A stretch of 61,676 nt of DNA from Candidatus Omnitrophota bacterium (GTDB lineage Bacteria; Omnitrophota; Gorgyraeia; Gygaellales; Profunditerraquicolaceae): the NCBI GenBank assembly GCA_026416665.1, contig JAOAET010000030.1, positions 1-61,676 on the forward strand, written 5' to 3'. The position numbers were made by a program, and so were the translations under genes. Under the pieces are notes generated by a model, which made no database searches, was not told where the DNA came from, and saw only the letters and a list, made by a program, of their open reading frames with translations. Of the stretch, positions 6,940 through 11,185 are shown in pieces (positions within the stretch are counted from its first letter, which is position 1; every line of letters starts with the position of its first letter).

Positions 6940-7239
6940 ATGAGGCCAAAGAAGACACGTTGGGTAAGGTGTTTACCCAAAGAGCGATTTTTTAAACCAC
7001 GCTGCAAACCACTTAACAGTTTAGAATCCGTAAGAATAACGTTAGACGAATTTGAGGCAATACGACTTGCGTGTTTGAAGGGGTTAAAGCAGGTTAAGGC
7101 AGCAGCTCGAATGAAAATATCCCGTCCAACTTTTTCTCGTATTCTAACCTCAGCACAAAAAAAACTTGCTGATGCACTGGTTAATATCAAAGCTATACAA
7201 ATTGAAGGTGGATGTTGTCAATTAATAAAAAGGAAATAA
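6940..7239 (+). CDS. UPF0251 (DUF134) helix-turn-helix protein
   Basis: A 99-residue protein of the DUF134 family. The hallmark blocks are RPKKTRWVRCLP at the N-terminus, ITLDEFEAIRLA near residue 44, a sigma-factor-like helix-turn-helix (AAARMKISRPTFSRIL) at about 62-78, and ALVNIKAIQIEGG at the end. It is predicted to bind DNA. The ATG lies only about 22 nt after the predicted start site and has no clear Shine-Dalgarno. The permease follows two bases after its stop. As first gene of the operon behind a strong palindrome, it is a candidate autoregulator. Confidence 0.85.
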   Translation: MRPKKTRWVRCLPKERFFKPRCKPLNSLESVRITLDEFEAIRLACLKGLKQVKAAARMKISRPTFSRILTSAQKKLADALVNIKAIQIEGGCCQLIKRK

Positions 7240-7241
7240 AA

Positions 7242-8414
7242 ATGAAAGAAGGAAAGAAAATTTTCTATCTTATAGCGGTTTTTTTAGCTTGTTTTTATTT
7301 GCCAATTGAAAATCGCCGTTTTATAACTGCTATCTACGAAGCACTTGCCTTAGTAAAATGGTATGCTCAAGAGCATGTCTTGTTATGTCTTCTGCCAGCA
7401 TTTTTTATTGCTGCCGCTATATCAGTTTTTATTAGACAAGAATCAGTGATGAAATACTTTGGAGCAGGGGCAAACAAACTTGTTTCTTATAGTGTTGCTG
7501 CTGTCTCTGGAACAATTTTAGCGGTTTGTTCTTGCACGGTTTTACCAATTTTTTCAGGTATTTATAAGCGGGGTGCAGGATTGGGCCCGGCTACGACATT
7601 TCTTTATTCGGGGCCAGCAATTAATATTTTAGCAATAATTCTTACCTGGCGTATCCTTGGTTGGCAACTTGGGTTAGCACGGGCTGTAGGCGCGATTATC
7701 TTCAGTATAATCATTGGTTTATTAATGCATTTTATCTTTTATAAGGAAGAATGCAAGCGAAAGCAAGAGTCAGGTTTTAACATAGAAGGAAACAAAGAAT
7801 CACGACCTCTGTGGCAGACGATTCTTTATTTTTTGGCTTTGCTGGGGGTTTTTATATTTGCTAATTGGAGTAATGCGTCTGCACAAAGTCAAGGTTGGTG
7901 GTTTTTTATCTTTAAATACAAATGGCGATTAACAATTTTATCTTTGTTGCTACTTATTTTGATGCTGGTTAGTTGGTTCAAAAAAGAAGAACTAAAAAAT
8001 TGGGGTAAGGCAAGCCTTGAATTTGCTTTTCAGATTACACCTCTTTTATTTTTAGGAGTGTTTATTTCAGGATTCTTGTTAGGAAGACCAGGCTATGACG
8101 GAATAATCCCTTCAAGTTTTATTAAGACGCTTGTGGGAGGTAACTCTTTAAAAGCAAATTTCTTCTCTTCTTTTGTAGCAGCTTTTATGTATTTTGCTAC
8201 CTTGACAGAGGTTCCTATTTTACAAGGGTTACTTGGTGCAGGTATGGGTAAAGGTCCGGCACTTGCGCTTCTTCTGGCTGGTCCGGCATTGAGTCTTCCT
8301 AGTATGTTAGTTATACGAACTGTTCTTGGCACTAAAAAAACAGTTGTGTATGTAATGTTGGTGGTAGTAATGTCCACCATTTTAGGTATGTTATTTGGCT
8401 GGTTAGTAAAATAA
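7242..8414 (+). CDS. UPF0718 / ArsP-like permease
   Basis: A polytopic membrane protein of 390 residues with about 8-10 hydrophobic segments. The family signature AVCSCTVLPIF (with adjacent Cys residues in a membrane segment), GLGPATTFLYSGPAINILAI and the repeat-like GKGPALALLLAGPALSLPS in the second half mark the UPF0718 group. This group includes ArsP, an exporter of trivalent methylated arsenicals, and YraQ. I chose ATG 7242 over the TTG at 7212 of the track because AAAAAGGAAATAAAA gives it a ribosome binding site. Co-transcription with a redox-active disulfide protein is a recurrent arrangement. The exported substrate is inferred, not shown. Confidence 0.8.
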   Translation: MKEGKKIFYLIAVFLACFYLPIENRRFITAIYEALALVKWYAQEHVLLCLLPAFFIAAAISVFIRQESVMKYFGAGANKLVSYSVAAVSGTILAVCSCTVLPIFSGIYKRGAGLGPATTFLYSGPAINILAIILTWRILGWQLGLARAVGAIIFSIIIGLLMHFIFYKEECKRKQESGFNIEGNKESRPLWQTILYFLALLGVFIFANWSNASAQSQGWWFFIFKYKWRLTILSLLLLILMLVSWFKKEELKNWGKASLEFAFQITPLLFLGVFISGFLLGRPGYDGIIPSSFIKTLVGGNSLKANFFSSFVAAFMYFATLTEVPILQGLLGAGMGKGPALALLLAGPALSLPSMLVIRTVLGTKKTVVYVMLVVVMSTILGMLFGWLVK

Positions 8415-8427
8415 AAAGGAGTAAAAG

Positions 8428-8670
8428 ATGAAAATTGAAATTTTAGGTATGGGCTGTTTCAAATGCAACCAATTACTTGAAAATACAGAAGCAGCAGTAA
8501 AACAGTTAAACATTCAAGCGGAGATAGTCAAGGTTACAGATATTAATAAGATTTCCGATTACGCAGTTATGTTGACCCCTGCTTTAGTAATAGAAGGAAA
8601 AGTAGTCTCAGCAGGTAAGGTTTTAACAAAAGATGAAATAAAAGAAATTCTTTTGAAAATGAGGCAATAG
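8428..8670 (+). CDS. Thioredoxin-like redox-active disulfide protein (MTH895/TM0508 type)
   Basis: An 80-residue thioredoxin-fold protein. MKIEILGMGCFKCNQLLENTEAA puts a CxxC pair (CFKC) at the start of the first helix, and MLTPALVIEGKVVSAGK has the cis-proline loop TPAL. These small glutaredoxin-like proteins commonly follow UPF0718 permeases. It has an excellent ribosome binding site (AAAAAGGAG) 13 bases after the permease stop, so it is the third gene of the operon. It probably reduces or shuttles thiol-bound metalloid, by context only. Confidence 0.85.
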   Translation: MKIEILGMGCFKCNQLLENTEAAVKQLNIQAEIVKVTDINKISDYAVMLTPALVIEGKVVSAGKVLTKDEIKEILLKMRQ

Positions 8671-9698: not shown

Positions 9699-9774
9699 GG
9701 GGCTGTAGCTCAGCTGGGAGAGCACTTGCATGGCATGCAAGGGGTCAGGGGTTCAAATCCCCTCAGCTCCACCA
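9699..9774 (+). tRNA. tRNA-Ala (anticodon GGC)
   Basis: GGGGCTG pairs with CAGCTCC with one G-U pair. The D arm is GCTCAGCTGGGAGAGC, the anticodon arm CTTGC-ATGGCAT-GCAAG gives anticodon GGC, and the T arm is GGGGTTCAAATCCCC. Discriminator A and an encoded CCA end at 9774. It is 76 nt with all canonical features. Confidence 0.96.
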
Positions 9775-9786
9775 AGTTTAGTTCGC

Positions 9787-9814
9787 TTGACTTTTGCTTA
9801 TTTGGTAGTATACT
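9787..9814 (+). promoter_or_regulatory. Promoter upstream of the fluoride riboswitch
   Basis: TTGACT (9787-9792), a 16-base spacer and TATACT (9809-9814). The predicted start near 9821 is about ten bases before the aptamer, the right arrangement for a riboswitch transcript independent of tRNA-Ala. Confidence 0.75.
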
Positions 9815-9830
9815 TGATTTATTAAATTTT

Positions 9831-9880
9831 GGCGATGAGGTTCGCCGTATAACGACCTAAAAAGGTTAATAACCTCTACC
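9831..9880 (+). promoter_or_regulatory. Fluoride riboswitch (crcB motif) aptamer
   Basis: GGCGATGAGG is followed by TTCGCC, then TATAACGACC, a TAAAAA loop, GGTTAATA and AACCTCTACC. This matches the crcB-motif fold segment by segment: GGCG pairs with CGCC, P1 is GAGGTT with AACCTC, and P3 is ACC with GGT. Compared with the well-known thermophile aptamer, P1 changes GGCC to GGTT with compensating changes, which is covariation. The normally seen CTGATG appears as TTAATA, a minor deviation. The 3' P1 strand doubles as the 5' arm of the terminator, so fluoride should favour read-through. Confidence 0.87.
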
Positions 9881-9901
9881 TAAAAGGTAGAGGTTTTATT
9901 T
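9871..9901 (+). terminator. Riboswitch expression-platform terminator
   Basis: AACCTCTACC (9871-9880), loop TAAAA, GGTAGAGGTT (9886-9895), then TTATTTT. The perfect 10-bp stem competes with the aptamer P1 for AACCTC, giving a transcription ON-switch for the antiporter. Confidence 0.88.
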
Positions 9902-9963
9902 TGGCTAAATTTAGTAAAAATCAAACATAAGTAAATTTTTCTGCAAACGAAAGGATGTAATCA

Positions 9964-11154
9964 ATGGAAAGTATGTTTACTGTGGCGTCATTGTGGTTAG
10001 GATTGGCAGTTATCTCTGCGATTGTTGCACAACATCTCAAAATCTCGATTGCACTAATTGAGATTTGTATGGGGCTTATTTTTGCTAATATCATTGAGCA
10101 TTTTTATGGCAAGGGAGCGTTTGGTAGCAACTTAGAGTGGTTGCGTTTCCTTGCTTCAAGCGGAGCGGTGTTACTTACTTTTTTAGCCGGTGCAGAGTTA
10201 GATCCTGTAGCCATTCGTAAAAAGTGGAAAGAGGTATCAGTAGTAGGTATTATAGGTTTTCTTGCTCCTTTTTTAGGTTGTGCTGCTTTTGCGCGGTTTT
10301 TGCTGGGCTGGGATATGCGTGCCAGTTGGCTTACAGGAATTGCGCTTTCGACTACTTCTATGGCAGTGGTCTATGCGGTAATGCTTGAAACAGGTTTCAA
10401 TAAGACAGAGTTTGGCAAAGGAATTTTAGGCGCTTGTTTTATTAATGATTTAGGAACTGTGCTTGCTTTGGGACTTATCTTTGCCCCTTTTAGTTTAAAG
10501 ACGGTGATATTTGTTTTGGTTAGTTTTGTTACTTTGGTGTTGTTTCCTAATCTAACAAGTTTTCTAACCAAACGCTATGGATATAAGACCGCAGCCATCC
10601 GCGCTAAATGGGTGGTTTTTGTTTTATTTGCTTTAGGGGCACTAGCTCTTTGGGCGGGAAGTGAAGCAGTGCTTCCTGCGTATCTTGCAGGAATGGTTCT
10701 TGCAGAGTTTGCTACAAAAGAAGAACACTGGGTAAGACGTCTGCGTACACTTACAGTGGGGTTTCTTACACCATTTTATTTTATCCGTGCAGGTTCTTTG
10801 GTATCTTTACCTGCACTTATCAACGCACCTTTTGTATTTGCTATACTCTTATTGAGCAAAGTTATTTCTAAAATATTGGGTTTGTATCCTGTAATAGGAA
10901 TATTTCGAGATAACCATAAAGAGAGATGGTACTACACCTTACTTATGTCAACGGGTTTGACTTTTGGGACCATTTCAGCACTCTTTGGTTATTCACACGG
11001 TATCATTAATCAAAATCAATATTCATTTCTAGTGGCAGCAGTAATTGCCAGTGCAGTAGTACCTACACTTATTGCTAATTACTTTTTCTTCCCTAAGCAT
11101 CTTATGCAAAAACTACCGCCCAAGATGCTTGCAGAAGGCATCGATGAGGAGTAA
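9964..11154 (+). CDS. CPA2-family cation/proton antiporter (KefB/NapA-like), fluoride-responsive
   Basis: A polytopic membrane protein of 396 residues, 11-13 predicted helices, of the Na+/H+ exchanger-like monovalent cation:proton antiporter-2 family. Visible blocks are IALIEICMGLIFANI in helix 2, LTFLAGAELDPVAI, TGIALSTTSMAVVYAVMLE with the exposed helix break, and GILGACFINDLGTVLALG with the conserved Asp of the ion-binding helix. There is no C-terminal TrkA-N domain. It lies directly under the fluoride riboswitch; CPA-type antiporters are a known class of fluoride-riboswitch targets, so a role in fluoride or pH stress is likely. The start has AAAGGA nearby. Confidence 0.88.
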   Translation: MESMFTVASLWLGLAVISAIVAQHLKISIALIEICMGLIFANIIEHFYGKGAFGSNLEWLRFLASSGAVLLTFLAGAELDPVAIRKKWKEVSVVGIIGFLAPFLGCAAFARFLLGWDMRASWLTGIALSTTSMAVVYAVMLETGFNKTEFGKGILGACFINDLGTVLALGLIFAPFSLKTVIFVLVSFVTLVLFPNLTSFLTKRYGYKTAAIRAKWVVFVLFALGALALWAGSEAVLPAYLAGMVLAEFATKEEHWVRRLRTLTVGFLTPFYFIRAGSLVSLPALINAPFVFAILLLSKVISKILGLYPVIGIFRDNHKERWYYTLLMSTGLTFGTISALFGYSHGIINQNQYSFLVAAVIASAVVPTLIANYFFFPKHLMQKLPPKMLAEGIDEE

Positions 11155-11156
11155 CA

Positions 11157-11185
11157 TTGACCATTTTAGACAGCTATGTTACAAT
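11157..11185 (+). promoter_or_regulatory. Promoter for nfo, giving an almost leaderless mRNA
   Basis: TTGACC (11157-11162), a 17-base spacer and TACAAT (11180-11185). The expected start is at about 11192, two bases before ATG 11194, and no ribosome binding site precedes the gene. Confidence 0.75.

Follow-up and report, generated by a model that had tools for sequence, protein, structure and literature searches.

We conclude that the gene at positions 9964–11154 of the window, the whole stretch of 61,676 nucleotides analysed here from a Candidatus Omnitrophota bacterium, probably encodes the cell's main fluoride-resistance transporter, an antiporter of the CPA superfamily driven by a canonical transcriptional riboswitch of the fluoride-ON type. 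When fluoride is absent, the terminator hairpin would, as it grows, invade the aptamer pseudoknot through a common strand, AACCTC, and transcription would end before the antiporter gene; binding of Mg–F would lock the pseudoknot and free the polymerase, allowing the antiporter to be made. Terminator invasion of this kind is established for the riboswitch class (PMC11077080). The antiporter would then confer fluoride resistance, with its subfamily substituting for CrcB/Fluc and CLC-F in most carrier genomes. Because the gene is riboswitch-linked and the genomes that carry it mostly lack both known exporters, it is a candidate for a third way of handling fluoride.

The aptamer occupies positions 9822–9885 of the forward strand, where the Rfam covariance model RF01734 scores 40.1 bits against a gathering cut-off of 34 (E = 1.2e-7 for the whole window), bearing out a sequence-only reading that had placed a fluoride riboswitch upstream of an antiporter. 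This is the single match in the 1.61-Mb genome (93.6% complete); the same scan returned no second fluoride riboswitch. In an alignment of 42 fluoride aptamers, P1 (GGCG/CGCC) and a six-pair pseudoknot between GAGGTT in the P1 loop (9837–9842) and AACCTC (9871–9876) both covary: of the cells covering the four P1 pairs and the six in the pseudoknot, 99.3% are paired, double-sided changes occupy 65 (shuffles give 16), and the structure outscores all slid versions of itself. The count covers P1 and pseudoknot pairs, those of P3 being excluded because MAFFT slips one column there. The covariation of P1 claimed earlier holds, and AACCTC is a strand of the pseudoknot, not of P1. Positions A6-U7-G8 and U41, the phosphate ligands in the numbering of the Thermotoga petrophila structure, are retained. 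So are A40 and U48, the linchpin pair of the riboswitch (PMC11077080). On sequence grounds, we regard the aptamer as a real and fairly standard predicted fluoride riboswitch.

The AACCTC strand that closes the pseudoknot also opens the 5' arm of an intrinsic terminator (9871–9904, forward strand), AACCTCTACCT-AAA-AGGTAGAGGTT with a T-rich tail, so the proposed overlap of terminator and aptamer stands. Its hairpin (9871–9895) comprises 11 pairs followed by TTTTATTTT, with a folding energy of −16.0 kcal/mol and a z score of −4.4. Computed over the whole leader by a program that ignores pseudoknots, the fold of lowest energy is the terminated state. We infer that the leader at 9787–9964 switches in response to fluoride. 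A sigma-70-like promoter on the same strand (9787–9814), TTGACT (9787–9792) and TATACT (9809–9814) separated by 16 nt and matching the consensus at 10 of 12 positions, ends 8 nt 5' of the aptamer, where it had been expected; since 1.2 sites this good would occur by chance in the scanned region, it is the position of the site that argues for it. A Shine-Dalgarno-like GAAAGGA (9949–9955, forward strand), read from the sequence, lies 8 nt 5' of the ATG at 9964. Beyond the gene, a second promoter-like sequence, TTGACC-17-TACAAT at 11157–11185, stands just 5' of an endonuclease IV-like gene (11194), suggesting that the latter lies outside the antiporter transcript.

Judged by its protein sequence, the window antiporter belongs to a distinct CPA subfamily dedicated to fluoride-riboswitch linkage. 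We found 62 homologues with 56–77% identity to the window protein, spread over many phyla (among the hosts are Omnitrophota, Nitrospira, Syntrophaceae, Desulfobacterota, Aminicenantes (Saccharicenans), Acidobacteria, planctomycetes and Pelotomaculum). In 44 of the 62, an RF01734 match above the cut-off precedes the gene in the same orientation by no more than 350 nt, and in 3 it lies farther upstream; no such match occurs in the stretch examined for the other 15, several of which are cut by contig ends or sit inside operons. A second clade (B) from Nitrospirales, with 42–51% identity, is riboswitch-linked directly or at the operon level, and all seven plasmid homologues examined, from Enterobacter, Citrobacter, Caulobacter, Methylocystis and Rubrobacter, follow a fluoride riboswitch. 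Three of these seven plasmid loci, all enterobacterial (L170–L172), share the order riboswitch, antiporter, Usp, MutS and MutS(-like), a module that adjoins a P-type ATPase, and homologues (matches H1–H31) are found on plasmids, some of them conjugative, from Enterobacter, Klebsiella and Citrobacter. The gene association had itself been reported before, since the plasmid arrangement fits the K+-transport and mutS genes already counted among those linked to the crcB-motif RNA by Weinberg 2010 (PMC2864571). Nor is an antiporter under a fluoride riboswitch an oddity: PMC11139923, citing Baker 2012, ranks Na+/H+ antiporters second only to the exporters in frequency among riboswitch-linked genes.

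Two loci (L029, L036) still have, about 50–110 nt 5' of the antiporter, a terminator resembling the one in the fluoride switch (GACTCCCACGATTCC...TGTAGGAGTTTTTT), with no aptamer found; these may be remnants. A truncated clade-B antiporter of 191 aa behind a riboswitch and an ABC gene (L163:2038–2613) is likely a pseudogene, and its genome is without CrcB and CLC. Transfer RNA genes adjoin the riboswitch–antiporter unit in the window (9699–9771) and in three other loci (L032, L035, L040), as if the unit had been inserted there.

How are the carriers distributed relative to the known exporters? Neither CrcB (PF02537) nor CLC (PF00654) was detected in the bacterium's own genome of 1.61 Mb, which is 93.6% complete. 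Among 51 distinct carrier genomes (53 entries, two genomes having been entered twice), CrcB occurs in 4, a CLC of any kind in 11 and neither of the two in 39, counts in which the incompleteness of metagenome-assembled genomes may conceal CrcB. The pattern is sharpest across 197 Nitrospirales genomes, where CrcB, present in 89, occurs in 1 of 39 carriers versus 88 of 158 others (Fisher p = 8e-11, a value that ignores shared descent), and CLC, present in 26, in none of the 39 versus 26 of the 158. Conversely, a fluoride riboswitch is found in 36 of the 39 carriers and in 29 of the 158 others. Antiporter and CrcB are thus almost mutually exclusive in Nitrospirales. The Omnitrophota relatives (147 genomes; CrcB in 36, antiporter in 4, one overlap) say little by themselves, because most of them have neither gene. 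CrcB and the antiporter occur together in some genomes (G075, L081, L174, G217), indicating that the antiporter can also add to CrcB rather than replace it.

The surroundings of the gene in other genomes point in the same direction. The antiporter is found in fluoride operons together with enolase, H+-pyrophosphatase, phosphoglycerate mutase and Usp. In one genome (G046), a riboswitch leads phosphoglycerate mutase, DUF6062, MFS and enolase genes, and a second riboswitch is followed by genes for a P-loop ATPase-like protein, a bPH_3 protein, H+-pyrophosphatase, the antiporter and DUF190; in other relatives DUF190 follows CrcB. Given this order and the DUF190 neighbour, the antiporter occupies the place that CrcB holds in comparable operons such as ppaC-uspA-eno-gpmA-crcB of Enterobacter cloacae FRM (PMC5533749). 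A 20-kb fluoride island in a Nitrospirales genome (L153, G362) carries five fluoride riboswitches above the cut-off and two antiporter copies, along with genes for an ABC-ATPase, enolase, Usp and phosphoglycerate mutase. Elsewhere, another PF00999 exchanger, one that has an acidic pair and does not genuinely resemble the window protein (L161:2047–3255, reverse strand; G022), lies behind a fluoride riboswitch; a match to the nhaA-I (Li+) riboswitch lies just 3' of the exchanger gene (also L014). In the window itself, a cluster at 6940–8670, 1.3 kb 5' of the riboswitch, encodes a DUF134 protein, an ArsP-type permease (PF03773) and an ArsE-like thioredoxin, and two other loci (L008, L009) have DUF134 and permease genes (67–78% identical) just 3' of a riboswitch–crcB pair, an arrangement that may point to a common resistance neighbourhood.

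What kind of transporter is this? The 396-residue product (9964–11154, forward strand) matches PF00999 with 120.7 bits against a cut-off of 26.2 (E = 8.5e-35), its sole Pfam match; PF02537 and PF00654 did not match, in agreement with the earlier view that an antiporter rather than CrcB or CLC-F is under control. Membership in the CPA superfamily is therefore sound, and the more specific CPA2 assignment has to be softened: the CPA2 model TIGR00932 gives 98.8 bits, under its curated cut-off of 238.3, and the label reflects best matches to KefC and NapA only, so that the protein is best described as CPA2-like. The KefB and KefC equivalog models score 43.5 and 40.5 bits, far from their cut-offs of 804 and 752, and the C-terminal RCK domain is absent. 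Structure prediction (AlphaFold2, mean pLDDT 87) followed by Foldseek placed NapA (E = 9e-12) and KefC (E = 4e-9) at the top, and these were the only solved structures returned by sequence. D162 aligns with KefC D156 and the second aspartate of NapA, and K303 corresponds to the TM10 lysine in both. The subfamily has N/T-D instead of an acidic pair at 161–162, D162 being invariant. Residue 275, a G in KefC, is invariably basic (R throughout clade A, R or K in clade B), and K299, close to the canonical K303, stands where KefC has F; at 299, 4 of the 17 clade-B members have N instead and one plasmid homologue has E. A signature (E33, W59, Y137, K215, S233-E234, R259, R261, R/K275, T333, T336) is common to both clades and the plasmid homologues, and its residues are missing from KefC.

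Near-exclusion of CrcB and CLC implies that the subfamily does more than help, and three transport mechanisms may be weighed against it. Tentatively, the CPA fold may have been converted to export F− directly, for example by F−/H+ antiport, which would add a third class to the known bacterial fluoride exporters. Consistent with this are the near-absence of the two known exporters, the replacement of CrcB next to DUF190, the missing acidic pair and the conserved basic residues 275 and 299, which are predicted to lie in membrane helices. Nevertheless, D162 is invariant, the two residues of cation/H+ exchange, D162 and K303, are both present, and position 299 is not basic in every member. To our knowledge, moreover, the CPA proteins characterised so far all move cations against protons. 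If direct export is correct, an NHE-fold fluoride exporter under fluoride riboswitches serves instead of Fluc/CLC-F in several phyla as well as on plasmids of enterobacteria; PMC13104614 (2026) still lists two bacterial exporter classes.

It is less probable, in our view, that a K+(Na+)/H+ exchanger admits protons so that F− is protonated and exits as HF, replacing an exporter without touching F− itself. The closest solved relatives, NapA and the K+/H+ exchanger KefC, favour such a scheme, which would also account for the exclusion of CrcB. Fluoride accumulates as a weak acid (PMC11139923), and intracellular acidification as a fluoride adaptation is the title of a study cited there (Strobel 2022). 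Against it, the subfamily signature absent from KefC represents more change than altered regulation alone needs, and the RCK/glutathione control of KefC is missing.

Equally doubtful is the converse, in which an ordinary Na+/H+ antiporter extrudes protons to restore the pH that falls when HF enters, and so assists an exporter without replacing it. This is the published explanation of riboswitch-linked antiporters (PMC11139923), and the unrelated exchanger with an acidic pair at L161 shows that another subfamily has also come to lie behind a fluoride riboswitch. A helper is predicted to accompany CrcB or CLC-F, however, and this antiporter avoids them, which disfavours the explanation. A main resistance transporter under riboswitch control remains our preferred reading, and in the open-licence literature we found no papers testing these antiporters for fluoride transport.

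Very improbable is the suggestion that TTAATA, in place of the usual CTGATG, marks a decayed or ligand-shifted riboswitch, although the aptamer score is the second lowest among the above-cut-off matches of the first 20 relatives and pseudoknot position 1 is U-A instead of the U-G wobble important for switching. Constructs of Bacillus cereus and T. petrophila need this wobble to switch well, and C-G in its place impairs switching (PMC11077080). The score is nevertheless above the cut-off and every pair is kept. Of the three changes, two preserve base pairs (at C37>U, the partner in P3 is A) and the third is common among relatives (for G39>A, A39 is present in 10 of 42 aligned aptamers); U-A at pseudoknot position 1 likewise recurs in 13 of 42. 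With its changes either pair-keeping or common, the motif gives no grounds for the divergent functional variant that the sequence-only reading had proposed, and we rejected the idea of a variant ligand.

Compared with known systems, the switch resembles the B. cereus and T. petrophila fluoride riboswitches in P1, P3, pseudoknot, gene-ON logic and a terminator sharing the 3' pseudoknot strand, and differs by U-A for U-G at pseudoknot position 1 and A for G at 39, both of which relatives have. With KefC (K+/H+) and NapA (Na+/H+) the protein has in common the fold, D162 and K303; identity is about 21–25%, the RCK domain is lacking, residue 161 is N/T, and R275, K299 and the subfamily signature are additional. 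The gene association is that of the riboswitch-linked K+/Na+:H+ antiporters in PMC2864571 and in Baker 2012 via PMC11139923, which those reports treat as a matter of pH or ion homeostasis; we found no statement of a dedicated subfamily or of CrcB/CLC replacement in the texts consulted. It is these two features, the dedicated subfamily and the near-exclusion of CrcB/CLC, that go beyond what we found stated in the literature reviewed. With CrcB/Fluc and CLC-F the antiporter shares the regulatory RNA and the operon partners (enolase, PPase, Usp, DUF190), whereas it is unrelated to them in sequence, is complementary to them in distribution and stands in a genome where both families are absent. Like the E. 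cloacae FRM operon, the related loci place a fluoride riboswitch over fluoride-inhibited enzymes and a transporter. That transporter is CrcB in E. cloacae FRM and the antiporter in G046, G116 and the Nitrospira locus L153, while the window has the antiporter alone.
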